The notes under the pieces are model-generated. The model had not been told where the DNA came from and did not search any database. It saw only the letters and a list, made by a program, of their open reading frames with translations. From contig JALSHZ010000107.1 of the NCBI GenBank assembly GCA_026981985.1, positions 1 through 51,592 of the forward strand: a DNA stretch of 51,592 bases, given 5' to 3'. Source of the stretch: Gammaproteobacteria bacterium. GTDB lineage: Bacteria; Pseudomonadota; Gammaproteobacteria; UWMA-0217. Every line of letters starts with the position of its first letter. Positions within the stretch are counted from its first letter, which is position 1. The position numbers and the translations under genes are program-made. This document shows, piece after piece, positions 354-41,061 of this stretch.

Positions 354-2333
354 ATGCCAATCAACCGGAAAAAGCAGTTCCTCACCCTCTTTGTTTTTAT
401 CACGCTCCTGTTCACCGCAGCGACCGGGTTGTCGGCGGCGACATTGGAACGCGGTCCTTATTTGCAGCAACCGAGCCCCGGCCAGATCGTGATTCGTTGG
501 CGGACGCGGGAAAAAACCGATTCGGTCGTCTCATTTGGGACGTTGGCCGGCGCCCTGAATCAGGAGGTTCGACGCGCTGGCCGTGTCACCGACCACGAGG
601 TGAAAATCGACGGGTTGGCACCGGCTACACGATATTACTATTCCGTTGGTGATTCGGCAGAGAGCCTTGCCGGCGGGAATGATTTTTACTTTGTGACTTC
701 CCCTGTTACTGGCAGTGATACGCCAACCCGTATCTGGGTGTTGGGTGACCCGGGGTCGCAATCGGGGGGCGGATCCAGGGCGGTACGTGATGCCTATGCC
801 GCATGGGCGGGTGATCGGCGGGCCGATCTTATCCTGATGCTGGGTGACAACGCCTATACGTCGGGCCTTGATCATCAGTATCAAGTTTCGGTTTTCGATC
901 GCTTTCGTCCGTTCTTGAGGAATACACCGTTATGGTCCGTTATTGGCAATCATGAGGGTAACAAGGCGGGTAAACGAGAGGAGTCAGCCGACTCGGTATA
1001 CCAATCCGGCCCCTATTACGAGATCTTCAGCTTTCCAAAAAAAGGTGAGTCTGGCGGGGTGGCGTCGAACACTGAAGCCTATTATTCGTTCGACCATGGC
1101 AATATTCATTTCATCATGCTCGACTCCTATTTCAGTACCGATGACCGGGAGCAGTTTCGTCACCGAATGCTGGCATGGTTGAAAAGCGATTTGTCGAATC
1201 AGCGTGCCAGATGGATTATTGCTGCCTGGCATCATTCACCGTATAGCAAGGGCAGCCATGATTCAGACGATGGCAGCCGGGAAAGCTATATGCGCCAGGA
1301 GATTCTGCCGATACTCGAATCCCATGGTGTCGATGTCGTGCTGACCGGCCATTCTCATGCCTATGAGCGATCCTTTTTATTGCATGGTGCCTATGGTCCG
1401 TCGAGTGACATCAGAAAAAATCCGGCGCTAATTCTCGATCACGGCAATGGCCGGCCAACGTCTGTCTCTCTTGCTGATGGTATTCCTGCCACTGGTGTGT
1501 ATCGGAAAAATCGCAGGGACGGAAAAGGTACGGTCTATGTGGTCACTGGTAATGCATCGAGCGTCAGCAAGCGCGGCAACCTTGATCATCCGGCGATGGC
1601 TGTTTCGCATCGGGAGCTGGGGTCGGTCGTCATCGATGTTGATGGCGATACACTCACCAGTTTTTTTCTCAATGACGAAGGGGTGGTCAGGGACAGCTTT
1701 GTCATCGACAAGGGAAATAATAGTGTATCCGAAGCCGGACAGTCTGCAGAAATTCCGATCCGCGACAAACCACCCCCGGCTAGTCAGGACACATTGTTCG
1801 TGGTCGAAAAACGCATTTCCGCCAGTGCCAATGATGTCGAGCAGCGCGCGACTGGCCGCATGTACCTGGATAGCAGCGATCTTGAAATGACCAGGGACAA
1901 ACAGAATCAAATAATCGGTCTGCGTTTCAATCGACTCGAACTGCCGGCTGCTGCCTCGATAACAGCAGCATGGATTCAGTTCGAGGTCGATGAAGTCAGT
2001 ACGCGAGAAACCGCGTTACGCATCAATGGTGAACTATCGGGCTATTCAAAAAAGTTCAGTACGGATCGTTTTGATCTCAGTTCACGGCAGATAACGCAGC
2101 AGAACACCATCTGGTTGCCGCCGCCGTGGCGCGAGAAAAGCGCCCGTGGTGCAGATCAAAGAACGCCGGATCTGTCGAAAATCGTGCAGGAAATAATCGC
2201 CATGCCCGGCTGGAAAAGTGGCAATGCGATGACTTTTATTGTTTCAGGCGTTGGTAAGCGCGTAGCCGAGTCGTTCGACGGTGAGCCTGCGGCAGCACCA
2301 CTACTTCATGTTGAGTATCGGCTGGCGCCGTAG
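354..2333 (+). CDS. Secreted purple acid phosphatase-like metallophosphoesterase
   Basis: A 659-residue exported phosphoesterase. The first 29 residues form a signal peptide (RKK, then a hydrophobic stretch, cleavage near LSA-A). Residues about 35-115 look like the N-terminal fibronectin-type domain of purple acid phosphatases (RGPYLQ start). The calcineurin-like dimetal site is visible in order: GDPGS at 131, LGDNAY at 163, GNHE at 198, WHHSPY near 297 and GHSHAYE near 334. The last 170 residues (from about LFVVEKRISAS) look like a beta-sandwich of the kind found at the C-terminus of surface proteins. The start is the ATG after AGGA. It is monocistronic and convergent with the Bat operon. 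Likely role: periplasmic or extracellular phosphate-ester hydrolysis; the substrate is unknown. Confidence 0.85.
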   Translation: MPINRKKQFLTLFVFITLLFTAATGLSAATLERGPYLQQPSPGQIVIRWRTREKTDSVVSFGTLAGALNQEVRRAGRVTDHEVKIDGLAPATRYYYSVGDSAESLAGGNDFYFVTSPVTGSDTPTRIWVLGDPGSQSGGGSRAVRDAYAAWAGDRRADLILMLGDNAYTSGLDHQYQVSVFDRFRPFLRNTPLWSVIGNHEGNKAGKREESADSVYQSGPYYEIFSFPKKGESGGVASNTEAYYSFDHGNIHFIMLDSYFSTDDREQFRHRMLAWLKSDLSNQRARWIIAAWHHSPYSKGSHDSDDGSRESYMRQEILPILESHGVDVVLTGHSHAYERSFLLHGAYGPSSDIRKNPALILDHGNGRPTSVSLADGIPATGVYRKNRRDGKGTVYVVTGNASSVSKRGNLDHPAMAVSHRELGSVVIDVDGDTLTSFFLNDEGVVRDSFVIDKGNNSVSEAGQSAEIPIRDKPPPASQDTLFVVEKRISASANDVEQRATGRMYLDSSDLEMTRDKQNQIIGLRFNRLELPAAASITAAWIQFEVDEVSTRETALRINGELSGYSKKFSTDRFDLSSRQITQQNTIWLPPPWREKSARGADQRTPDLSKIVQEIIAMPGWKSGNAMTFIVSGVGKRVAESFDGEPAAAPLLHVEYRLAP

Positions 2334-2343
2334 CTGATAATCG

Positions 2344-3795
2344 TTAGCGCCGATGGCCAAAATTTGCAATGAAGCCCGAGCCTCTAATCAGCTTCGAGAC
2401 AACCTGCTGCAACTGTCTTTTGGGGGATTCGATTCGCAATACACTGGTTTTCACTGCGGCAAAACTTTTGTCGCTGTGGCGTGAAAAACTCAGGGCGTTG
2501 AGATTGGCTGCGGTCTGTGTCGCTTGGAGTGTGCCGGTTGCAGCAGCCCAGGCTTCGAGATGCCGCTGGCGATGGTAGCGCAAGAGCTCGCGGCGGAGTG
2601 CATGGGCATCTGTCGCGGCATGCAGCAGGTGAAGATGATGGCGGTAATGCCTGATCCGGTGTGCGACGCGGCGTAGCAGGATGATAACCCCGGCAAACAG
2701 GATCATGCCGACCAGAGCCAATACGGCAATGAACCAGCCGGGTAGTCTGGTGGCTGCTGGCAACAGGTGGTCGAGCGTTTCGAGGCGCTGTGACCGGGGT
2801 GAAAAAAATCGGATGCTCAAGGTGGGGCCATGGAGCAGTCCAACAGTCCACTGCGGTACCGGCATCGTCCAGCTTCTATGCCACCACCCCTGTGCGTCGA
2901 TGCTTGCCTCGCCACTATTGATTGATGCTTCATCAATGCCGAGCGCGGAGGCGAGTGTCCGTTGCAAACCCCATGGATGGCTGTCGAGCAGGCCATCGCT
3001 GGTTAACGTCACTTGCCAGTAAGGTTGTTTGTCGTCATGGATGAGCCCACTGCTTGCGCTGAGCGTTCCCACTGGCAGTGTCGGCGGTAAATAGCTTGGT
3101 AATGGAAAGACTGCGATTTCCTGCAATGGCAGATGAAAACGCCAACGTCCATTGCCGCGTTGCTGGATCGCAGGTAACGCCAGCCGGTAGCTGCCCTTCG
3201 CCGCAGGGTATAGTCGCCAGCGCAGCTTGATCACATCCTGTCCTTGCCGGGTTTCGTGTTGTTGCGGCAAGGCGACCACGGTCATGCCGGGCACTGACCA
3301 GTCGGATGTGCTGACCTTGTTCGTCGGTGCCAGCAGCGGAACAGTTACCGCTACCTTGATTGGGGTGCCCACCTGCACCTTTTTCGGCAGCGGCTCAAGG
3401 ATGGGTTGGCCGTCGATGCCATTGCGTTGCAGCGGCCGGACTTTGACCTTGATCGGTTCCATGATGACGCCGCCGTGGGCAATGGCGTTGATCACGAGGT
3501 CGCCGCTGAACCTGGGATAGAGTCGAATATCCTCATGGCTGATGATTTCGCCGGCTTTTTCTTCAGCGGAAAAGTTGTCGCGCTCGACCAGAAACTCTTC
3601 TTCCCATGGTCTTAAGTCTGCGGGCCCGGTGCCGCTTTTGCCGCGATAGTTCAGGGTGCCGATAAATACCCGGCCATATTCTATTTCACGGCTGTCGAGC
3701 TGCAATGAAAGCTCTGCACTCATTGCGATATCACAGATGAGAAAAAAGCCAAGCGTCAATAACGTTGCAATAAGCCGATTGCGACCAATTACCAT
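2344..3795 (-). CDS. BatD-like protein, last gene of the MoxR/Bat operon
   Basis: 483 residues with a signal peptide (about 1-27, cleavage near AMSA-E). The long periplasmic beta-rich part has the look of BatD proteins (SREIEYGRVFIGTLNY near the N-terminus). One membrane helix near 355-378 (WFIAVLALVGMILFAGV) is followed by a basic cytoplasmic tail of about 100 residues. The start overlaps the end of the preceding VWA-TPR gene by 7 bp, so it is probably translationally coupled. BatD partners membrane VWA proteins in MoxR-type operons. The sequence is divergent and position in the operon carries much of the call. Confidence 0.75.
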   Translation of the reverse strand: MVIGRNRLIATLLTLGFFLICDIAMSAELSLQLDSREIEYGRVFIGTLNYRGKSGTGPADLRPWEEEFLVERDNFSAEEKAGEIISHEDIRLYPRFSGDLVINAIAHGGVIMEPIKVKVRPLQRNGIDGQPILEPLPKKVQVGTPIKVAVTVPLLAPTNKVSTSDWSVPGMTVVALPQQHETRQGQDVIKLRWRLYPAAKGSYRLALPAIQQRGNGRWRFHLPLQEIAVFPLPSYLPPTLPVGTLSASSGLIHDDKQPYWQVTLTSDGLLDSHPWGLQRTLASALGIDEASINSGEASIDAQGWWHRSWTMPVPQWTVGLLHGPTLSIRFFSPRSQRLETLDHLLPAATRLPGWFIAVLALVGMILFAGVIILLRRVAHRIRHYRHHLHLLHAATDAHALRRELLRYHRQRHLEAWAAATGTLQATQTAANLNALSFSRHSDKSFAAVKTSVLRIESPKRQLQQVVSKLIRGSGFIANFGHRR

Positions 3796-5555
3796 GGGCG
3801 CACACCTTTAAGGCGGTAGGGTTTTTCTGGCATGACGCCAAGGCCGGCTTCCAGTGGTAGCAGGCGGTTGAACAGACCGATACTGTTTTCGGGTGCCAGG
3901 CTTGTATTATTGCCTGACCAGCTGCTGGTTTGTGCTTTTGCTGTGGGGGCGATGCCAAGTGCTCGCGCAACGCCTTTTTCGATCAGCTGGTTAACGCGAT
4001 CACGACCGAGTGCTTCGATGATCTGCGGGCTCGACGTTTGCAGTTTCAGCCAGATGCCTTCAGTGAGGCGCTCCAGCAGCCCTTCCGGAATGTCGCGTGC
4101 GTTGGACTGCCAGTCTGCCTTGCGCTGTACCATGTCGAGATGAATGCGGTATTTTCTCAGGGCGTCGGCAAGTTCGTTTGCAAATTCGAGATTGCGTCTG
4201 GTCGCGGCTTGATCGACGCCAAGGATGTGAGCCTGCTCGAACAGCACTGCGGCTTCCTCGAATTCGCCGAGCTGAAAATGGGCGTTGCCCAAATTAAATA
4301 CGGCGCGCCCGCGTTGCTTGTCGTTGGTTGCAAGCCAGGCTGCGCGGGAAAATGCCTGCCGGGCGCAGATCCAGTCGCGCAGGCGGTAACAGGCAACGCC
4401 TTCTCCAAATCGTGCGATATAGCCTTCCTGCTGGGAAAACAATTCGCGTGCGCTCAGGTAATCGCCATTTTCCAGTCGTTGTTGCGGGTCTGGTGCGGCG
4501 CTTGATTGCTTGCTGGGTATGGTCAGCAGAAAAAATATCCCCAGTGCAGCCAGCAACAGCGGGTTGTTTTTCTGTTCAGGTCGCATCACTGTCAAAAGCA
4601 GCAGAAACAGCCCCGCGAGCAGCGGCAAGGAAAACCACTCGTTCCACACAATCTGTCCCTGGTCTTGCGGATCGATGCGCGGTGCTGGTTGTTGGATGAG
4701 TTCTGCAATCGTGGCATCACCCAGCTGTTCGATGGGGTAGTATTTTCCACCGCTCGATTGGGCCAGCGTTTTCAGTATGGGTTTTTCCTGGCGGGTGAGT
4801 ATGCTGCGATTTTCTTGCAACGTATCGGTGGCCAGCGATGCCGGTAGTGCGACTTTTTCGCTGCCGCCGACACCGATCACAAACAGGCGGATATCGTCGG
4901 CTTGGAGTTTATTCTCGATAACAGCTGTTGCGCTTGCAACAGCGGCTTCGTCGATGTCGCCGTCAGACAGCAGCAATATGGCGCGGTAGCCTTCTTTGTT
5001 TTGTAGCTTTTCGGCGGCCGTTTGCAGCACTGCTGCGAGGTTGTTGCCGAGGGTGGGTGTGCGCAGCGCATCGAGTTGCGAGACAAGGCCTCGCAACAGC
5101 GCGGTGTCTTGCGTGGGTGGCAGCAGCAAATGCCCGTGACCGGCAAACACGCCAAGCCCGATCGCCATATCGCTATTTTCCTGGCCAAGTATTCGATCGA
5201 GTGATGCAATGGCCTGTGCCTTGCGTGTCGGGCGGATGTCATCGGCGAGCATCGATGCGGAAAAATCGACGATGGCCACCATGCTGGCAGTGGCAGGGCG
5301 CAGCTCCGGTGGTAGCCAGCGCACTGTGCGCGGTCCGGCAAGCGCAATCACAAACAATATCCAGGCCAGTGCCAGCAGCGCGCGGCGCGCCTGCCCCCTC
5401 GTTGCTGCCGATTTCTCCTGCGCCCAGGGCAATAGGGCTGGGTCGATGATTGTCGATAGCTTTCGTTTTCTACCGACGAGGTTGAGCAGCGGTAGCAATA
5501 GCGGTAAAACTGCTACCCATAGCCAGGCTGCTTCACGCCAGTAGATCGTGCTCAT
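3789..5555 (-). CDS. Membrane VWA-TPR protein (BatB/BatC fusion type)
   Basis: 588 residues. Two N-terminal membrane helices (about 10-28 and 60-75) precede a von Willebrand A domain with an intact MIDAS signature, DFSAS at residues 97-101, and a later LLSDGD acidic loop. Two more hydrophobic segments lie at about 315-350 (SLPLLAGLFLLLLTV and LLLAALGIFFLL). The rest is TPR-like (AVFNLGNAHFQLGEFEEAA). BatB (VWA) and BatC (TPR) are separate genes in some bacteria and fused here. The VWA domain should face the periplasm and bind a divalent metal. ATGA overlap with the upstream VWA gene and 7-bp overlap with batD indicate one operon. The exact job of Bat complexes is poorly known; envelope stress or aerotolerance has been proposed for relatives. 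Confidence 0.85.
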   Translation of the reverse strand: MSTIYWREAAWLWVAVLPLLLPLLNLVGRKRKLSTIIDPALLPWAQEKSAATRGQARRALLALAWILFVIALAGPRTVRWLPPELRPATASMVAIVDFSASMLADDIRPTRKAQAIASLDRILGQENSDMAIGLGVFAGHGHLLLPPTQDTALLRGLVSQLDALRTPTLGNNLAAVLQTAAEKLQNKEGYRAILLLSDGDIDEAAVASATAVIENKLQADDIRLFVIGVGGSEKVALPASLATDTLQENRSILTRQEKPILKTLAQSSGGKYYPIEQLGDATIAELIQQPAPRIDPQDQGQIVWNEWFSLPLLAGLFLLLLTVMRPEQKNNPLLLAALGIFFLLTIPSKQSSAAPDPQQRLENGDYLSARELFSQQEGYIARFGEGVACYRLRDWICARQAFSRAAWLATNDKQRGRAVFNLGNAHFQLGEFEEAAVLFEQAHILGVDQAATRRNLEFANELADALRKYRIHLDMVQRKADWQSNARDIPEGLLERLTEGIWLKLQTSSPQIIEALGRDRVNQLIEKGVARALGIAPTAKAQTSSWSGNNTSLAPENSIGLFNRLLPLEAGLGVMPEKPYRLKGVRPW

Positions 5556-24508: not shown

Positions 24509-27388
24509 ATGAAACATTGGGTAAAGATTTCCGTATTGCTGTTCTCCAGTCAGCTTGCATTGATGGGGCAGCTCATGGCCGCCGAGGATGGCGCTGCCGC
24601 AACGCCAGCAGATGGCGCGGGTGATGCAGCGGCCGCACCCGCGGTGCCGGCAGCAGACCCGGCAGCGGCTGGTGATGCTGCGGCTCCCGTGGATGCTTGT
24701 CCAGATGACAAGGCAGCGTTGGTGGCGTTATACGACAACCTGGGTGGTGAAAATTGGAAAAAAGGTGGTCCCACCGATAACGATATCAACCTCCGTTGGG
24801 TCACGGGGCCTAATCACTGCGATTGGTTCGGCATTGAATGTGATGCCTCGGGTAAGGTCATTTCTGTCGATTTGAACGCCAACAAGCTCAAGGGAGCGAT
24901 GCCTGAGGCGCTGGGAGATCTTGGTTGTCTGACAACCTTGAACCTCGATGACAACAGCATTGGCGGCGAGATCCCTGCTGCAGTCACTAAGTTGACTGCA
25001 CTTGAACGGTTGTCGCTGGATGCCAACAAGATTCAGGGCGATATCCCCTCCGGCCTCGCGGACATGACAAAGCTGACAAGCATCGATCTAGACTACAATG
25101 CATTGCATGTAGCTAACGACGCGGCGGCGGGCGTCGCAACGTCGCTTGAACAGAAGCACGGCAGCAACTTCCTCGAAACCCAGACGCTGGACGCGCAAAA
25201 CGTCAAAGTTGTCGCGCGTACCCGTACTTCCCTGACCCTCGAATGGGATCAGGTGACTTTCACGCCGGAAGGTGGGTATCGCATCTATATCTCTGATAGC
25301 TACGATGGCCCATTTACGCATCATGCAGCCATCAGTGGTACCGGTGTTGATACCGCCAAGGGAGAAGTCGTCGGCAAGGCGAACACCACTGCCGTTGTCG
25401 AAGGTCTGGAGCCGGGCAAGAAGTATTACTTCGTCGTTCATAGTTTTACCAATCCGCATGACGACAACCGCAATGAGGTGGAGAGCGACGGTCAGACTGG
25501 CACGCCGGCGCTTGGTATCACTGACAGCGACGATTCCGATCTCGATGGGCTGAAGAATGCGGAGGAAGCTGCGATTGGGACTGATCCGAACAACCCGGAT
25601 TCCGATCGTGACGGCATCTTCGACCGTCAGGAGGCAGATCCGCTGAATCCTGCGAACACAGACAAGGATGCGCTAATTGACGCACTGGATCCGGACGATG
25701 ACAACGACAACGTCCCCACCCGTCAGGAAGTGATTATTCCGGAAGATCCGGGTCAGAGTGCAACCTTCAAGGATACGGATGGCGACAAGACGCCCGATCA
25801 TCTCGATGCCGATGACGATGGCGATGGTGTGCCAACAAAAATTGAGACCACCAACGCGGCAGGTGATGTGGATCTGGCGCTTGACACCGACGGTGATGGC
25901 ACCCCCAACTACCTCGATACCGATGACGATGGCGATGGCATCTCCACCTTTGATGAGACCAATGGTGGCAAGGACATCAACAAGGATTCTGATGATGATG
26001 GCATCCCGGACTATCTCGACAACAAGAACGACAAGGTCGCCGTACTGGAAGACACGGCGGATCTGGTCGACACATCTATTGGTGGCGGCTCGATGAGTCT
26101 GGGTATCGCTGCTGCTGGTCTGCTTGGTGTGTTGCGGCGCCGGCGTCGTCTTGCCATCACTGCGGCTGCCATCACGCCACTGCTCATGCTCAGTGGTATG
26201 GCTGGGGCTGATGAGAAGGCCGTCGACGAAGCCAAGGCAGCAGCCCAGCAAGAGCTGGACAAGGCCAAGGCCAAGGGCAAGGTTGAAAAGAAAGCATCCG
26301 GAGCGACTGCGGCAAAAAAGCCTGGTCTCAAGGATGAGAAAATCGATTTCAAGGTAACGCAAGCGCAGCCTGAACGTGGTGGTCGTATCTACCTGGGTCT
26401 TGGTGCCGGTCTCACGACCTTGCAGCCCGAACCGAAGACGCCAGGGGTTACGGTCAGTGATGACAACAGTACTGGATACAAATTCCTGTTCGGCTACGAA
26501 GCTACAGACCATTTGGCGATCGAGGCCATGGTCGGCGCATTGGGTGAAGCGACATTGTCGCCTAGCGATAAGACGGTCGACTACAAGGTCGGTTCGTTGT
26601 TTGCACTGTACAACTTGTTTGATTACCGGGTCGGCTTGAATCCGATCGTCAAGGTCGGTGTCTCGTCGATCCAGAACAGCAGCGACACTGGTATCGACTT
26701 GAACGAGATCGATGACACGACGCTATCGGCAGGTGTTGGTTTGGAATATGAATTCGGCAATGGTTTCGTGATTCGTGGTGAATACGAGTACTACTCCGAG
26801 GATGCACAAATGGCATCCATCAATGTGCTCAAGCGCATGGGCGGTGAAGCGCCCATCGTCATTCCTGCGCCGGCGCCTGAACCGGTCGTCGTGCCGCCCC
26901 CCGCACCTGCGGTCATTCCTGCGCCCAGTGTCAAGGTCGAATTCAAGATCCCTGATACAGATGGTGATGGTGTCAACGATATCCGCGATGCTTGTCCGAA
27001 TACACCAGCTGGCGCTGAGGTTGATGAAGTGGGTTGCGCCAAGTTCCAAGGCGTACTCAAAGGCGTCAATTTTGAATACAACTCTTCGCGATTGACGCCG
27101 CGTGCGCGGGCAATTCTTGAAGAAGTCGCCGCCGAGCTGAAGAACTATCCGAACGTGAAAGTTCAGGTTGAGGCGCACACCGACAGCAAGGGTTCCTCAG
27201 GATACAATCTGTGGCTGTCAAAAGCGCGTGCGCAGAGCGTCATCGATTTTCTCGTGTCACGTGGCATCTCCGCCCGGCGTTTGATTCCGATTGGCTTTGG
27301 TGAAACCAAGCCAATCGCTTCGAATAAGACCGATGCTGGTCGCGCATTGAACCGGCGGGTCGAGTTCAAGGTGCTGTCACCGCGGTAA
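24509..27388 (+). CDS. LRR/TSP3 surface protein fused to OmpA-type barrel, internal sorting-signal junction
   Basis: 959 residues from the ATG at 24509 (MKHWVKISVLLF, a good signal peptide ending near LMAA-ED). Domains: Ala/Pro-rich linker (about 27-62); plant-type leucine-rich repeats with N-cap (65-205; NWKKGG, CDWFGIEC, LNLDDNSIGGEIP); fibronectin III (231-330); calcium-binding thrombospondin-3 repeats (339-507). Then GGGSMSLGIAAAGLLGVL and RRRRR at 525-547, which looks like a GlyGly-CTERM sorting tail, yet translation continues into a second signal-peptide-like segment (548-567, possible cleavage AGA-DE), an Ala/Lys linker, an eight-strand-like OmpA barrel (about 625-790), one TSP3 motif (DTDGDGVNDIRDACPN) and an OmpA C-terminal peptidoglycan-binding domain (about 846-959). 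Each domain call is good; the processing of the junction is inferred. Confidence 0.85.
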   Translation: MKHWVKISVLLFSSQLALMGQLMAAEDGAAATPADGAGDAAAAPAVPAADPAAAGDAAAPVDACPDDKAALVALYDNLGGENWKKGGPTDNDINLRWVTGPNHCDWFGIECDASGKVISVDLNANKLKGAMPEALGDLGCLTTLNLDDNSIGGEIPAAVTKLTALERLSLDANKIQGDIPSGLADMTKLTSIDLDYNALHVANDAAAGVATSLEQKHGSNFLETQTLDAQNVKVVARTRTSLTLEWDQVTFTPEGGYRIYISDSYDGPFTHHAAISGTGVDTAKGEVVGKANTTAVVEGLEPGKKYYFVVHSFTNPHDDNRNEVESDGQTGTPALGITDSDDSDLDGLKNAEEAAIGTDPNNPDSDRDGIFDRQEADPLNPANTDKDALIDALDPDDDNDNVPTRQEVIIPEDPGQSATFKDTDGDKTPDHLDADDDGDGVPTKIETTNAAGDVDLALDTDGDGTPNYLDTDDDGDGISTFDETNGGKDINKDSDDDGIPDYLDNKNDKVAVLEDTADLVDTSIGGGSMSLGIAAAGLLGVLRRRRRLAITAAAITPLLMLSGMAGADEKAVDEAKAAAQQELDKAKAKGKVEKKASGATAAKKPGLKDEKIDFKVTQAQPERGGRIYLGLGAGLTTLQPEPKTPGVTVSDDNSTGYKFLFGYEATDHLAIEAMVGALGEATLSPSDKTVDYKVGSLFALYNLFDYRVGLNPIVKVGVSSIQNSSDTGIDLNEIDDTTLSAGVGLEYEFGNGFVIRGEYEYYSEDAQMASINVLKRMGGEAPIVIPAPAPEPVVVPPPAPAVIPAPSVKVEFKIPDTDGDGVNDIRDACPNTPAGAEVDEVGCAKFQGVLKGVNFEYNSSRLTPRARAILEEVAAELKNYPNVKVQVEAHTDSKGSSGYNLWLSKARAQSVIDFLVSRGISARRLIPIGFGETKPIASNKTDAGRALNRRVEFKVLSPR

Positions 27389-31511: not shown

Positions 31512-34500
31512 ATGGCGAATCAATCGTCTTCCAGCGCATATATTACCGATGGGTCTGGAGCCAAATCCATTTTCAAGGGAAGAATCCCCGCACTCGCGTT
31601 GGTGCTGGCGGGGGTTGTCTATGCGGGCCAAGGCCTGGCCGCTGGCTGTCCTGCAAATACAGTGCCTGATGGCAAGAATCTCATCGTCAATGGCAATTTC
31701 TTCAATCAGCCTGCAGGGCCTTATCCCATTCCAGCAAAAACTGATCTTGGTGGCTGGGAAGCGGATGTGCCTTTCAATGGGATTGGCTATGCGCCGGATA
31801 CCACGGTCACGATCGTAGTCGGCGAGCTTGATGACGGCGGGCCTATCTCCCAGATCCCTTTTCCGGGCGATGCGGATAACAACGTACCAGCGACGCCAAC
31901 ATGGCTTTACTCCAATGGTAACGACAAGGCCACCTCCCGCGTGATCTGGCGGCAGACGGTTACGGGGCTCACGCCAGGCAAGGACTATGTGTTCTACGGC
32001 TATTACAGCAATGTCATCAGTCCTGAGACGACGGACCCCTATGTGGAACCGATCATGAATTTCGGGGTGGATGGCGAGAGTATCGGCACGATTACCGCAC
32101 TCAATCACAGCAACTTGCTGTCCGGTGATGGCGGCGAGGATGTCTGGAAGCGTTTCGAATTCAAGATTACGCCGACCAAGGATTCGGCAGTGCTGACCAT
32201 TGCTGATGATGTCGTCAACGAAATTGGTGGTGACGACCTGGCGATTACGGCAATTGGCATCGAATCCTGTAAAACAACACTCGCTGGCCCTGATATTTCC
32301 GCAGACAAGACCAGCCTGATATTCACTGGTGTCGTCGCGGCCACCAGCGAGCCGCAGGTTATTACCGTGACCAATGAGGGTGAGTTGGATTTGAATATCA
32401 CCAAGGTGGCACTGGCGGGCTTGAACCCCGCGGACTACGCGATCAGCAAGAACAGCTGCACCGCTGCTGTGGCGCCAAAAGGGACTTGCACGATCGAAGT
32501 TGTTTTCAAGCCGACGGTGATTGGCAGCCGCGTGGCTGAAGTGCAGGTTTCATCGAATGATGCTGACACCCCGGTGCTGAAAGTTCCGCTGGCGGGCACG
32601 GCTACGGCGATACCGCTGGGCAGTGTCGATGTGGAGCCTGTTGCGGTGGTTTTCCCGACGACTGAAGCGGGTAAGAGCAGTAAAGCCGAGACGATCACCG
32701 TAACTAATACCGGGGCGGCAGATATCACCATCAACGATGTGGTGCTTGCGCCAACCGATGCAGAATTCACCATGGATGCCACGGCCTGCGCCAAGGGTAC
32801 CACGCTGAAGCCAAAAGCCAGTTGTGATATCACGGTTACCTTCGAGCCGACCAGTGCCGGGTCGAAGAGTGCTACGGTAACTGTGGCTTCGGATGACAAG
32901 GACAAGCCTGCTGTCAATGTGGCGCTGACGGGGCTTGCGACACCTTCCGCGACGGCCGATATCGCGTTCCCTGACAAAGATCTTCTGGCCAAAGGCATGT
33001 CTTTTGGCGAGCTGCTTGTTCAGACGACCAGCAAGCCGCAGACCTTCAAGATCAAGAATGCCGGTGGCGCGCCGCTGACGATCAGCGACATCAGTGTCTC
33101 GGATCCGCAGTTCAAGGCCGATACCACCGACTGTCTGGCGACACCGGTTGCAGCCGGCGAGGAATGTGAGGTTGAAGTGACCTTCTCACCGACGAAGGTG
33201 GGCCCGCAAACAGCGATTCTGAGCATTGTCTCCAATGATGTCGACGAGAGCCCGGTACCCGTACTGCTGACAGGAACTGGCCTGACCGATGACAAGGACA
33301 GCGATGGTGACGGCCTGACGGATGAAACCGAGGCACGCATGTGTACGGATCCGAACAACCCGGATACCGATGCCGATGGCCTGCCCGATGGCATCGAGGA
33401 CGAAAACAAGAATGGCCGCGTCGATCGCGATGTCAGCGGTGCTTTCCTGGAGACAGATCCTTGTGTCAAGGATACGGATGGCGACGGCATCATCGACGGT
33501 GTCGAGGACGCGGATCATGACGGCAAGGTGCTCAAAGATGGCGCTGCGTTCAAGGAGACTGATCCGCGGATCGTCGACACCGACGGTGACGGCCTGACAG
33601 ACGGCATCGAGGATGCCAACAAGAATGGCGTCTACGACAAGCCTGCCGAGACCGACCCGCGCGTTGTCGATACCGATGGTGATGGCATCAGCGATGGTAT
33701 TGAGGACGTCAATCGCAATGGCGTCATCGATGCTGGCGAAACCGACCCACGGGTACCGAATAAAACCGAAGTGCTCGGTGAAACCGAAACGGCTGCTGGC
33801 CCGGTACTGACCGACCTGGAAGGTGGTGTCGGTGGTGGCGCTGCTGGCTTGCCTCTGCTCAGTCTACTGGGTGCGGGCATGCTGTTTCGTCGCAGAAAGG
33901 TAGCCGCCGCAGTGGCGGCTACCGTCGCCGGTGCTGCGTTGATCGCAGCACCCGTGCAGGCGAAGGAAGGGCAGTTCTACCTCGGTCTCGGTGTCGGTCA
34001 GTCTTATATCGAGCCTGACCCCGATACCAACAACACGGGCTACAACGTCGATGAGGACACAGACTTCGGTGGCAAGATCTTCCTTGGCTATGATCTGACC
34101 GATTTCTGGTCGATCGAAGGCTTCTATGCCGATCTTGGCGCATCCGAACTGAGCCATGCGACGAAGGCGGATGGGGAGATCGATTACAAGGCCTATGGCC
34201 TGGAGACTCTGCTCCACCTGCCCAACACCAAGCCGGGCTTTTCCGGTTTTCTGAAGCTGGGTCTGGGCAAGATGAAGACTGATAGTGATACGATCCCGTT
34301 TGAGGATCTTGAGAACGGCCAGTTGTTCGGTGGTGTCGGTCTCGAATATCAATTCGAGTCAACGGTGTCGCTGCGAGGTGAATATCAATACTTCGATGAA
34401 GATGCCCAGCTGATCACGCTGAACGTGCTCAAGCGTTTTGGTGGCGAAAAGCCCGTGCCTGTCGTCGTGGAGCCGGTCGATACCGATGGTGACGGAGTCA

Positions 34501-35168
34501 TCGACGAAAAGGATAAATGCCCCGGCACGCCAGCGGGCACCCGCGTGGATGTCACCGGCTGTGCAATCGACAGCGATAACGATGGTATCGTCGATTCCCG
34601 CGACAAGTGTCCGAATACGCCGGAAGGTGTTCGCGTTGACGCAACGGGCTGTCAGTTCGTCGTCGAAGTGGCGATCGATTCTGACTCCGACGGCGTGATC
34701 GATGAGCACGACAAGTGCCCGGATACGCTGCAAGGCATCAAGGTCGATTCGAACGGTTGTCCGTTCGTGACTCAAGAAGTCATCGACCAGTTCACTGGCG
34801 TGCTCGAAGGGGTGAACTTCCACACCAATTCAGCCCGTCTCACCGGCGAAGCGATGAGCATTCTCAATGGTGTCGCGCATCAGCTTGCTGAGCATCCAGA
34901 GGTCAACGTGATCATTGTTGGCCACACGGACAGCATTGGCCCGGCGGATCGTAACCGCGCTCTGTCGCTAGAGCGAGCCAAGTCGGTGGCACGTTATCTC
35001 GTCAGCCGCGGTATCGAGCGCAGCCGTCTGAAGTACGCCGGCAAGGGCGAAGATGAGCCCATCGCCTCCAACGCGACTGCGGCAGGACGCGCGAAGAACC
35101 GCCGCGTTGAGTTCATTGTTGAACATGATGGATATGACGGTGGTTACGGCGCTTCCAATCGTTACTGA
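31512..35168 (+). CDS. Choice-of-anchor-D/TSP3 surface protein fused to OmpA-type barrel, internal sorting-signal junction
   Basis: 1218 residues, with GAGGAG ahead of the ATG. A long N-region leads to a signal sequence (IPALALVLAGVVYAGQGLAA, 25-44). Then a DUF642/carbohydrate-binding-like domain (45-258; NLIVNGNFFNQPAG), three choice-of-anchor-D/ASH-type Ig repeats (about 261-365, 372-475, 482-590; each ends CxxxVTFxP...), and TSP3 calcium repeats (593-755). At 771-796 comes GGVGGGAAGLPLLSLLGAGM plus LFRRRK, a GlyGly-CTERM-like tail, followed directly by a second signal-like segment (797-817; LIAAPVQA, cleavage before KEG), an OmpA barrel (820-975), three TSP3 motifs (986-1083) and an OmpA C-terminal domain (about 1090-1210; NFHTNSARL, GHTDSIG, NRRVEF). 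An in-frame ATG (33879, M790) just before RRRK could also start a separate OmpA protein. Confidence 0.85.
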   Translation: MANQSSSSAYITDGSGAKSIFKGRIPALALVLAGVVYAGQGLAAGCPANTVPDGKNLIVNGNFFNQPAGPYPIPAKTDLGGWEADVPFNGIGYAPDTTVTIVVGELDDGGPISQIPFPGDADNNVPATPTWLYSNGNDKATSRVIWRQTVTGLTPGKDYVFYGYYSNVISPETTDPYVEPIMNFGVDGESIGTITALNHSNLLSGDGGEDVWKRFEFKITPTKDSAVLTIADDVVNEIGGDDLAITAIGIESCKTTLAGPDISADKTSLIFTGVVAATSEPQVITVTNEGELDLNITKVALAGLNPADYAISKNSCTAAVAPKGTCTIEVVFKPTVIGSRVAEVQVSSNDADTPVLKVPLAGTATAIPLGSVDVEPVAVVFPTTEAGKSSKAETITVTNTGAADITINDVVLAPTDAEFTMDATACAKGTTLKPKASCDITVTFEPTSAGSKSATVTVASDDKDKPAVNVALTGLATPSATADIAFPDKDLLAKGMSFGELLVQTTSKPQTFKIKNAGGAPLTISDISVSDPQFKADTTDCLATPVAAGEECEVEVTFSPTKVGPQTAILSIVSNDVDESPVPVLLTGTGLTDDKDSDGDGLTDETEARMCTDPNNPDTDADGLPDGIEDENKNGRVDRDVSGAFLETDPCVKDTDGDGIIDGVEDADHDGKVLKDGAAFKETDPRIVDTDGDGLTDGIEDANKNGVYDKPAETDPRVVDTDGDGISDGIEDVNRNGVIDAGETDPRVPNKTEVLGETETAAGPVLTDLEGGVGGGAAGLPLLSLLGAGMLFRRRKVAAAVAATVAGAALIAAPVQAKEGQFYLGLGVGQSYIEPDPDTNNTGYNVDEDTDFGGKIFLGYDLTDFWSIEGFYADLGASELSHATKADGEIDYKAYGLETLLHLPNTKPGFSGFLKLGLGKMKTDSDTIPFEDLENGQLFGGVGLEYQFESTVSLRGEYQYFDEDAQLITLNVLKRFGGEKPVPVVVEPVDTDGDGVIDEKDKCPGTPAGTRVDVTGCAIDSDNDGIVDSRDKCPNTPEGVRVDATGCQFVVEVAIDSDSDGVIDEHDKCPDTLQGIKVDSNGCPFVTQEVIDQFTGVLEGVNFHTNSARLTGEAMSILNGVAHQLAEHPEVNVIIVGHTDSIGPADRNRALSLERAKSVARYLVSRGIERSRLKYAGKGEDEPIASNATAAGRAKNRRVEFIVEHDGYDGGYGASNRY

Positions 35169-38515: not shown

Positions 38516-39598
38516 TTATTCTTCCTTGATCTCGAACTCGACCCGCCGATTCAATTGGCGGCCTGCCGCTGTCGTGTTGTCGGCGATCGGATGCTGCTTG
38601 CCATGGCTTATGCGCTCCAGACGCTGTGCGTTGATACCCCGGTCGATGAGGGCGTTGGCTGCGGCGTTGGCCCGTTTCAGGCCGAGTGCCTGATTGTAGC
38701 GTTCTGAGCCTTCTGCATCGGTATGTCCGTGGACGCGCAGTTCGATATCCTGGTGTGCCTTGAGTTCGGCGGCGACGTGATCGAGTTTCTGCTCAGCAGC
38801 AGCTGAGAGTTCATATCGGTCGAACTCGAACAGGATGGTCGGCAATGTTAGGCTGGTTGTGGGCGCCGGCGGTGGCTCGGGTGTGAGCGGCGGCATTGTG
38901 GGGGTGACCGCTGCAACGGGTGCTGGTGCCTTGCTTGTGCGTGGTGTATGCGAACGTCCGAACCGCTTGATCAGGCCGATCGAAAACGCTTTGGCATCCT
39001 CGTCGAAAGAGATGAACTCGATACGCGCGGCAAAACCATTCGACCAGCCGTATTCCAGGCCGGCACCAAGATGCAGATCCCAGTCCTTGCGTTGGCGATG
39101 GATGATATTGGCGGAGGAGGTATCGAGCTTGCCGATGCCGATGCGACCAAAGAATGACAGGCCTTCGCGTCGATAGTAGCCCTCGTCATCAGGATAGCCG
39201 GGATAGTCGCTGCCAGAGCGGGAGTTGAACAGATAGCCAATCGCGCTGACCCCACCGTACTTGTAGTCGATTTCTCCCGCGTGACTCCGGGAGGTCTCGT
39301 CAGCAATACCTGCCTCGCCGAGCCTCGAGTAGAAACCCTCGACGCTCAGTCGTTTGCTGAGATCGAACCCGAGTGTGAGCGTCGCCCCGGTGCTACTGTC
39401 ATCGTCCTGGATGAACCCGGTATCACGTGTGTCGGGTTCGAGTGTCGACGCAGAGAGACCGCCGCCAAGATAGAGCCGCTGAGGGAAATCTCTGGCTGCC
39501 GCCATCTCGGCAGCCAGCAGCGGTGTAGCAATACTGGCTGCAATGCAGCTGGACAGCACCAGTCTTTGCAAGCAGGGTTTATGGTGGCGAATGTTCAT
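38516..39598 (-). CDS. OmpA-family outer-membrane protein (unfused paralogue)
   Basis: 360 residues. Signal peptide of about 30 residues (LVLSSCIAASIATPLLAA-E). An OmpA-like barrel (about 37-210) shares the pattern YLGxGxxxxxLEP, SVEGFYSRLGEA, GEIDYKYGG and GAGLEYGW...FDEDA...LIKRFGR with the two large fusions, so the three barrels are paralogues. Pro-rich linker (about 215-250), no TSP3 repeats, and an OmpA C-terminal domain (FEFDRYELSAAAEQKL; GHTDAEGSERYNQALGLKRA; NRRVEFEI) that binds peptidoglycan. Its ATG overlaps the stop of the upstream gene (ATGA), so translation is probably coupled. Confidence 0.92.
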   Translation of the reverse strand: MNIRHHKPCLQRLVLSSCIAASIATPLLAAEMAAARDFPQRLYLGGGLSASTLEPDTRDTGFIQDDDSSTGATLTLGFDLSKRLSVEGFYSRLGEAGIADETSRSHAGEIDYKYGGVSAIGYLFNSRSGSDYPGYPDDEGYYRREGLSFFGRIGIGKLDTSSANIIHRQRKDWDLHLGAGLEYGWSNGFAARIEFISFDEDAKAFSIGLIKRFGRSHTPRTSKAPAPVAAVTPTMPPLTPEPPPAPTTSLTLPTILFEFDRYELSAAAEQKLDHVAAELKAHQDIELRVHGHTDAEGSERYNQALGLKRANAAANALIDRGINAQRLERISHGKQHPIADNTTAAGRQLNRRVEFEIKEE

Positions 39599-41061
39599 TG
39601 CTGCGCCCTCGTTGCCAGGCGGTGTCGGCGCAGACCGACAAGCGCCAATGGGGCCAGCAGCCAGCCCAGGCTCCCTGCACCATGTCCTTGCAGTCCGGTT
39701 TCGATCAGCCGCTGAGCCGACCCGGTATCGGCGAGTACGGCAGTTGGTGTCGGTGTTGATGCGGGTATTCTGGTTCCTGGCAGTGGTGTCACGGTGATCT
39801 GGATACGTGCTTCGCTGCTACCACCATTGCCGTCGCTGATTTGGTAGATCAGGAAGTCGTCGCCGCTGAAACCGGTATCGGAGGTGTATCTGATCACCTC
39901 GCCAATGACCGTAGCGGTACCATGCGCTGGCGGCTTGCTAATGGTCAGCTGCAGCGGATCGTTTTCGGGATCGCTGTCGTTGCTCAGTGGCGCGATGTCG
40001 ACAGGCTCACCCGTGTTGGCAGTGGCGTTGTCCGGTTGCGCAAGCGGTGGCTGGTTGATGGGCGCCAATTGCAGATTGCCGCCGGTGCCCAAATGGAAAT
40101 CTGCATCATCGATGTCATTGTGCGAGCTGGTGTCGCGGGGGAATGTTTCCGGGGCGGTCAGATCGTGCTGATCTGGATCGATGTCTTTCGCGAATGCCGA
40201 AATGCCATAGTATTTTTGTCCGGGTGCAATGCCGAGGTCGAGCAGTGAAACGAATGCAAAGCCGAGTGCTTCCGGTTGTGAGCTGCGTGCGACCATGAAT
40301 CCGTTGGGTGACTTGCTGCTATTGGAAAGAAAGTCGTTCAGGGTGTAGATGTTGGTGATGCCGTACTGAACCTTCGTGGTGTCGGCATAGCCGCTTTCGT
40401 GGATCCGGACGAGTGGGCCATACGCGTCCGGTTGGCCATCGGCGCCCAGCGACAGTATTGCGGCGATCTGGATCGGGTTGTTACCGCTTTTTTCCAGCAC
40501 GGTGTGTCCAGCGAGCGCCAGTTCGCTGGAGGGTGCGATGATTCCCTGGCTATAGATCAGGTCGACGCGCTCGATATTCTTGTGTGAATAGCGCCATGGG
40601 CCGGCGTTGGTGAACACGTCGAGCGCACCAATATTGGCGACATTGCCGGCAATGATCTCCGCCAGTGGGCAGTCTCCAGGGGTGCCCGGCAGCGTGGCCT
40701 GGTATTGCCGGGCTGTGCCAGCCGTTTCCGCATAGATAGCGCAGGGCTCTCCAGTGGCATTGGGATTATCGATGCGGACGATCTGAACTCGATCAGGCTG
40801 AATGGGGTTGTACGCAAGCGTTTGATCCTGGTAGACGAATGATTCGATCTTGAGATCGACACCCAGACCCCAGCGATAGCTGCTGTCGTCGACAATATAG
40901 CTTGAAGGGACTGCTGGCACCGAGGTGGTATTGACGAGAGAAACCTCTCCGCGTGCCATTGCGCTGCCTACCGGTGCGGCTGTGGCTGCCACGAGAATTA
41001 GTGTCCGCAGTATTTTGCCGTATCGGTGCTGTTTCAACGGAGGCGTGTACGAATTGTTCAT
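39595..41061 (-). CDS. Exported cadherin-like/Big-type surface protein with GlyGly-CTERM-like tail
   Basis: 488 residues with a signal peptide (LRTLILVAATAAPVGSAMA-RG). Residues about 35-325 are an unassigned beta-rich domain (ESFVYQDQTLAYNPIQPDRVQ; WRYSHKNIERVDLIYSQGII). Residues about 338-425 are an Ig/cadherin-like repeat (PPLAQPDNATANTGEPVDI ... DDFLIYQISDGNGGSSEA). The C-terminus GAGSLGWLLAPLALVGLRRHR followed by eight residues has the Gly-rich/hydrophobic/Arg arrangement of GlyGly-CTERM sorting signals, which are cleaved by rhombosortase in known systems. The next gene, overlapping by 4 bp, encodes the OmpA partner. Confidence 0.8.
   Translation of the reverse strand: MNNSYTPPLKQHRYGKILRTLILVAATAAPVGSAMARGEVSLVNTTSVPAVPSSYIVDDSSYRWGLGVDLKIESFVYQDQTLAYNPIQPDRVQIVRIDNPNATGEPCAIYAETAGTARQYQATLPGTPGDCPLAEIIAGNVANIGALDVFTNAGPWRYSHKNIERVDLIYSQGIIAPSSELALAGHTVLEKSGNNPIQIAAILSLGADGQPDAYGPLVRIHESGYADTTKVQYGITNIYTLNDFLSNSSKSPNGFMVARSSQPEALGFAFVSLLDLGIAPGQKYYGISAFAKDIDPDQHDLTAPETFPRDTSSHNDIDDADFHLGTGGNLQLAPINQPPLAQPDNATANTGEPVDIAPLSNDSDPENDPLQLTISKPPAHGTATVIGEVIRYTSDTGFSGDDFLIYQISDGNGGSSEARIQITVTPLPGTRIPASTPTPTAVLADTGSAQRLIETGLQGHGAGSLGWLLAPLALVGLRRHRLATRAQQ

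Follow-up and report, generated by a model that had tools for sequence, protein, structure and literature searches.

The 51,592-nucleotide window analysed here, contig JALSHZ010000107.1 of a gammaproteobacterial assembly (GCA_026981985.1), contains a gene at 31512..35168 (+) in which a tagged, adhesin-like front protein and an OmpA-type outer-membrane barrel are encoded as one chain. This gene probably specifies a two-product secretory polyprotein, which would be cut by rhombosortase and by signal peptidase I to give a pair resembling TraA and TraB of myxobacteria. It is a polyprotein-like fusion of 1218 amino acids in a single uninterrupted frame, with an ATG at 31512, a stop at 35168 and no internal stop in 1218 codons. 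The N-terminal signal peptide region (residues 1-45, 31512..31646, predicted cleavage near LAA|GCP) is followed by a domain (residues 46-258, 31647..32285) predicted to be lectin-like, with a CBM4/galactose-binding jelly-roll fold, and thus a possible lectin head. The AlphaFold2 (AF2) model of this domain had a pTM of 0.82; Foldseek matched it to CBM4-2 (E 1.5e-6), other sugar-binding jelly-rolls were similar, and its profile weakly matched the galactose-binding lectin 6yf6 (E 0.0022). A Pfam search of residues 46-258 returned no match, and the DUF642-like identity first proposed for this domain was therefore dropped. The other front modules that the original prediction had named were recovered: three choice-of-anchor-D (immunoglobulin-like, Ig-like) repeats (32286..33281, borders approximate; NF012200, three stretches, E 9.9e-57) and TSP3 repeats (residues 591-755, 33282..33776; PF18884, TSP3_bac, three stretches), a predicted calcium-binding rod. 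The back half begins with an 8-stranded OmpA-type barrel (33963..34445; PF13505, OMP_b-brl, and PF01389, OmpA_membrane), whose model had OmpA as its best solved matches in Foldseek (9fzc, E 6e-10; 1bxw, E 8e-8). TSP3-type linker repeats (34446..34805, PF02412/TSP3-like) lead from there to an OmpA C-terminal peptidoglycan-binding domain (residues 1103-1197, 34806..35126; PF00691, E 7.2e-22). The back half thus carries both the eight-stranded barrel and the PF00691 domain that characterize the OmpA family.

The two halves meet at a composite junction whose residues are exactly where they had been predicted (G771-G772, R793-R794-R795-K796 and P814-V-Q-A817|K818). Its first part, GGVGGGAAGLPLLSLLGAGMLFRRRK (residues 771-796, 33822..33899), presents a Gly-rich motif, a hydrophobic helix and a basic cluster in the order of GlyGly-CTERM sorting tags. 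Judged on these motifs, the Gly-rich/Arg half of the junction is a sorting-tag-like signal of the GlyGly-CTERM type, although one that is below threshold in this gene; the internal tag of a homologue (L057, genome G004) scored 17.9 bits against TIGR03501, above the cut-off of 15.5. The MYXO-CTERM model TIGR03382 gave 13.4 bits on the window tag, against a cut-off of 15.85. The second part, VAAAVAATVAGAALIAAPVQA (residues 797-817, 33900..33962), has the basic n-region, hydrophobic core and AxA site of a signal peptide, with predicted cleavage at A817|K818 directly before the mature domain. The signal peptide ending in PVQA that had been proposed before the barrel was thus confirmed as a pattern, and its AxA site falls where the N-terminal signal peptides end in unfused homologues aligned to it. 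An AF2 model of the junction plus barrel placed two helices on either side of RRRK, followed by eight strands.

The junction is preserved in relatives. Homologues lacking the Gly-rich/Arg junction, which had been named as the case against the original prediction, were not what we found: a tag helix, a basic cluster and a second hydrophobic segment were present in 43 of 43 fused relatives. The order hydrophobic, basic, hydrophobic, AxA with preceding glycines lay at the junction in 42 of the 43 and elsewhere in one; the AxA site fitted a strict pattern in 41/43 and a relaxed one in 43/43, the AxA regular expression alone being permissive. In the congener (G001), which has a 1230-residue frame with a back half 82% identical to that of 31512-35168, identity is 92% at the junction, where 23 codon changes are synonymous and 4 nonsynonymous, compared with 57% across the frame's first 60 residues. 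Similarly, the N-terminal signal peptides are 49% identical and the internal ones 95%. Pooling four orthologue pairs showed far stronger constraint on the junction than on the N-terminus (p 1.6e-7). That the junction is also more constrained than the barrel held for 31512-35168, but was not significant in the pool (nonsynonymous share of changed codons 30% in the junction vs 37% in the barrel, p 0.17). These codon comparisons indicate that the junction is constrained at the protein level, about as much as the barrel when pooled.

We searched with the back half and found fused homologues in the congener and in three other genera of the family (G002, G003, G004), and the fused arrangement was then found in many gammaproteobacterial families. 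After duplicate removal and hand corrections, 76 barrels comprised 43 fusions, about 22 pairs of a tag gene and a barrel gene, and about 11 others; two false positives of the pair classifier (L093 and L142:5322) were taken out by eye. Among 399 sampled genomes of the phylum, strong barrel matches occurred solely inside the class and none outside it. As the original prediction had proposed to check, other front halves are attached to this barrel in relatives: the fusions carry LRR plus FN3 domains (as in a second gene of the window, at 24509), Ig-like plus TSP3, Big_9/cadherin, GEVED or SdrD_B domains, or no known domain. In the unfused pairs the tag gene lies directly upstream of the barrel gene, often with an overlap of 4 bp. 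On the barrel tree, fused and split states require 12 changes; when fused barrels are set against all the rest there are 16 changes, 9 of them forced by well-supported branches. Nearly identical barrels are found in opposite states (fused in L128 of G205, separate in L161 of G078). The same is true within one genus, where L068 (G054) is fused and L164 (G296) has an ATGA overlap; these two can be aligned across the junction, where the internal signal peptide of L068 takes the place that the N-terminal one has in the L164 partner. By this sequence comparison, a widespread two-gene pair (a dyad) exists in two states that interchange, the fusion being one of them. That the junction works as a functional unit and did not arise by accident is borne out by the 43 fusions with diverse fronts, by the protein-level constraint, by the match to a tag type whose protease is encoded in the genome, and by partners that also occur as overlapping separate genes.

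Two side observations concern these relatives. In the L055:2038 region (G003:C16) the tag and barrel genes are in frame with a single stop between them (RRRSILKH*KELTMKRF). Some barrel relatives, among them L142 (G260:C9) and L143 (G355:C217), have lipobox-like signal peptide ends (LAACGS, LSSCVS, LSGCSA), which suggests lipoprotein versions of the barrel partner.

The enzymes expected to act on these tags co-occur with the dyads. The window genome (G000) encodes one rhombosortase (C51:10509-10958; TIGR03902, 144.1 bits against a cut-off of 84), with a GLSG segment and a later NSH segment, and rhombosortase exceeded the cut-off in 36 of 36 dyad genomes tested. Of 369 genomes sampled evenly from the class, 38 had a strong barrel match, and 37 of these encoded rhombosortase, against 87 of the 331 others, across 20 families (p 1.4e-18, a value inflated by relatedness, kinship being handled through the family count alone). 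In several families a different tag, JDVT-CTERM (NF033191, 29.5-34.3 bits against a cut-off of 27), occupies the same internal position. This applies to relatives only, as the window genome is not of the JDVT type. The corresponding protease MrtJ was above cut-off in 9 of 9 genomes in which a JDVT tag was seen in a dyad, and in 4 of 26 others. The gene order tag gene, barrel-OmpA gene, MrtJ was found in G214, G080 and G046, and at L178, L184 and L185 the barrel-OmpA gene sits between the gene of a JDVT-CTERM protein and that of MrtJ. It is difficult to see why two unrelated tag systems would occupy one and the same site ahead of the same barrel if the tag had no function there. The secretin GspD of the type II secretion system (T2SS) was detected in 16 of 16 genomes tested, in 14 of them above cut-off.

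In the processing that we propose, the N-terminal signal peptide would begin export through Sec, and the GlyGly-type tag would halt translocation with the Arg cluster staying in the cytoplasm. The following hydrophobic segment would re-enter as an internal signal peptide, forming an inner-membrane hairpin with the tag helix. Rhombosortase would then cleave at the Gly motif and join the front protein to lipid, while signal peptidase I would cleave at VQA|K818 and release the barrel-OmpA half, which would be inserted with the help of Bam. The peptides predicted to start the back half after processing are EGQFYLGLGVGQ/KEGQFYLGLGVGQ, and VQAKEG spans the uncut site. The front protein, with its lectin-like head and its stalk of Ig and TSP3 repeats, would be displayed outside, probably via the T2SS, next to a barrel partner tied to peptidoglycan through the OmpA domain. 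The pair may form a contact or adhesion complex whose subunits would be supplied at near 1:1, as for myxobacterial TraA/TraB.

Several points weigh against this reading. The tag of 31512-35168 scored 11.2 bits, below the TIGR03501 cut-off. It is followed by 422 residues, while known GlyGly-CTERM tags lie at the extreme C-terminus, a location that Haft and Varghese considered a possible feature of specificity (PMC3237569). The helix hairpin, including the tag helix (residues 17-32 of the AF2 junction model), was modelled at low confidence, and the co-occurrence statistic is affected by relatedness as stated above. The adhesive role is suggested by analogy and fold, and the case as a whole is built from sequence and predicted structure, from which we infer what happens to the protein.

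One alternative to two-cut processing is internal initiation, in which the back half would start at an in-frame codon before the internal signal peptide and the read-through form would be minor or useless. Indeed, 31512-35168 has an ATG (for instance in GAGMLFRRRK) and a TTG near the junction, some ATG, GTG or TTG occurs in the junction zone of 38 of the 43 fused genes (ATG in 20), and unfused homologues begin at that place with a start codon of their own. However, 5 of the 43 have no start codon in the zone, a Shine-Dalgarno-like site precedes one in 5 of 43, the frame became fused repeatedly, and across the junction the tag is under constraint at the protein level. An internal start was not conserved among the 43 fused genes. 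Internal initiation is therefore an unlikely explanation.

Alternatively, the junction could be an uncleaved two-helix hairpin of the inner membrane that keeps the front and OmpA halves as one protein. Such a hydrophobic hairpin, its Arg loop facing the cytoplasm, would suit an integral membrane anchor, and cleavage at the junction is itself deduced. Nevertheless, normal assembly in the outer membrane would not be expected of a barrel that stays attached to the inner one, the AxA site lies where the signal peptides of unfused homologues end, frequent switching to separate genes shows that a single chain is unnecessary, and the link to the tag proteases is strong. We give this possibility little credence. 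Much the same holds for action of signal peptidase I alone, which would leave the GlyGly-type segment as a C-terminal anchor of the front protein without involvement of rhombosortase. The sub-threshold score and the internal position of the tag, known tags being at the extreme C-terminus, would fit this explanation; yet the homologous tag of L057 exceeds the cut-off, rhombosortase was found in every dyad genome tested, and most credible GlyGly-CTERM proteins of G000 belong to such dyads, which makes it quite improbable. Finally, it is scarcely conceivable that two genes were joined through an error of assembly or sequencing: the nearest named relatives are metagenome-assembled, G000 is in 149 contigs and the tag of its C36 pair is frameshifted, but the recurrence of the fusion, with 4 cases in G000, the same 4 in the congener and 43 in total over many families, refutes it.

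Two-cut processing has precedents in part. In MXAN_5598 of Myxococcus xanthus, an internal MYXO-CTERM precedes a barrel/OmpA region, and Guo et al. 2025 (PMC11980579) noted it as a probable fusion and suggested processing. By its published description, the level at which we compared it, this protein also combines an adhesin-like front, an internal sorting tag and a barrel with an OmpA domain in one chain. In contrast to the window protein, it has a Cys-containing MYXO-CTERM tag handled by myxosortase instead of a GlyGly tag and rhombosortase, and it was presented as one case in one paragraph, with no family or switching. In the archaeon Haloferax volcanii, HVO_0405 is likewise a fused chain with a central sorting signal, whose ArtA-dependent cleavage was shown (PMC7157517), although the enzyme is a different one, an archaeosortase, and there is no outer-membrane barrel. 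Internal tags can therefore be cut, as shown for HVO_0405 and proposed for MXAN_5598.

The dyads also resemble TraA/TraB, in which the receptor is tagged and has a lectin-like domain, and its gene overlaps that of an OmpA-type partner by four bases (PMC3325183); the partner TraB is a barrel-TSP3-OmpA protein and the complex is 1:1 (PMC12045341). A tagged surface receptor with a lectin-like head and a stalk, a barrel-TSP3-OmpA partner and a four-base overlap are common to both. Unlike the window protein, TraA/TraB consists of two genes, with a MYXO-CTERM tag, a PA14 head and a Cys-rich stalk. Membership of TraB was rejected (NF033763, 127.2 bits against a cut-off of 700, the best stretch covering model positions 351-498, TSP3-OmpA only), as was membership of TraA, the window front having a CBM4-like fold with Ig-like and TSP3 repeats and not PA14, Cys-rich or MYXO-CTERM parts. 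As for the enzymes, rhombosortase cuts VesB and exposes its second Gly, to which a glycerophosphoethanolamine-containing moiety is added before T2SS export (PMC6219818), and the GlyGly-CTERM tag is portable (PMC13393428). The window gene shares with this system (PMC3237569, PMC6219818) the succession of Gly motif, transmembrane segment and basic cluster, the rhombosortase and the T2SS; it differs in the internal position of its tag, after which come a second signal peptide and an outer-membrane protein (OMP). In its published description, JDVT-CTERM/MrtJ is a neighbourhood of two genes, for MrtJ and for a single tagged protein (PMC11980579). Relatives of the window protein share with it the tag, located internally at the corresponding site, and the presence of MrtJ; the layout seen here differs from the published one by an OmpA barrel gene between the tag gene and MrtJ.

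The window contains three dyads within 17 kb. The second fused gene (24509..27388, +) has an LRR-FN3-TSP3 front and the same back half, according to its frame and domain matches; its internal tag GGGSMSLGIAAAGLLGVLRRRRR lies at 26081..26149 (+) and its internal signal peptide LAITAAAITPLLMLSGMAGA at 26150..26209 (+). The paralogy predicted for the two barrels was upheld by alignment (39% identity, E 3.7e-41). The third dyad (38516-41061, -) is unfused. Its surface protein (39595..41061, -) has cadherin/Big_9 domains (PF17963) and a GlyGly-CTERM tag at 39619-39681, which TIGR03501 scored at 17.9 bits in one search and 13.5 in another (cut-off 15.5). The barrel-OmpA partner, recognized by domain matches, has its own signal peptide (38516..39598, -), and its ATG overlaps the TGA of the upstream gene by 4 bases (ATGA). 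Nine credible GlyGly-CTERM proteins, assigned by eye, were found in G000: 4 are fused to a barrel (two in the window, one each in C31 and C101), 4 are encoded directly upstream of an OMP gene (window, C81, C36 and C127) and 1 is alone (C134:28342). The 4 fusions are also fused in the congener. In C127 (L044), a GlyGly-CTERM gene with PKD repeats (1308-4331) overlaps by ATGA an OMP gene (to 4990) whose product has an OmpA_membrane barrel but lacks the OmpA domain; the partner in this dyad is thus of another type. In C36 (L175, near 42440), the upstream tag is frameshifted, with its hydrophobic part and Arg cluster in different frames, reflecting either true decay or an assembly error. Long Gly-rich simple repeats, (GGGT)n or (GGS)n, directly precede the tag and connect it to the front half in L039 (G000:C31) and L060 (G004:C306).

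Viruses offer familiar examples of processed secretory polyproteins, which, to our knowledge, have rarely been described in bacteria. A text search of the literature, covering mostly papers outside subscription, found no description of GlyGly or JDVT polyprotein versions. New here are the rhombosortase and MrtJ versions, their recurrence, the switching between fused and split states, and the gene order tag, OmpA, MrtJ. The two-cut design recurs many times with two unrelated protease tags, and the unfused versions are its natural controls. It is conceivable, if rather doubtful, that these genes represent a large unrecognised gammaproteobacterial class of self-splitting lectin/adhesin-OmpA polyproteins and two-gene equivalents, which rhombosortase and MrtJ would chiefly serve, and that the dyads perform cell contact or outer-membrane exchange of the TraAB kind outside myxobacteria. 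The two-cut design provides GlyGly-CTERM proteins of unknown role with a partner and a likely task, makes recognition of an internal tag by rhombosortase directly testable, and extends the search for TraAB-like contact systems past myxobacteria.

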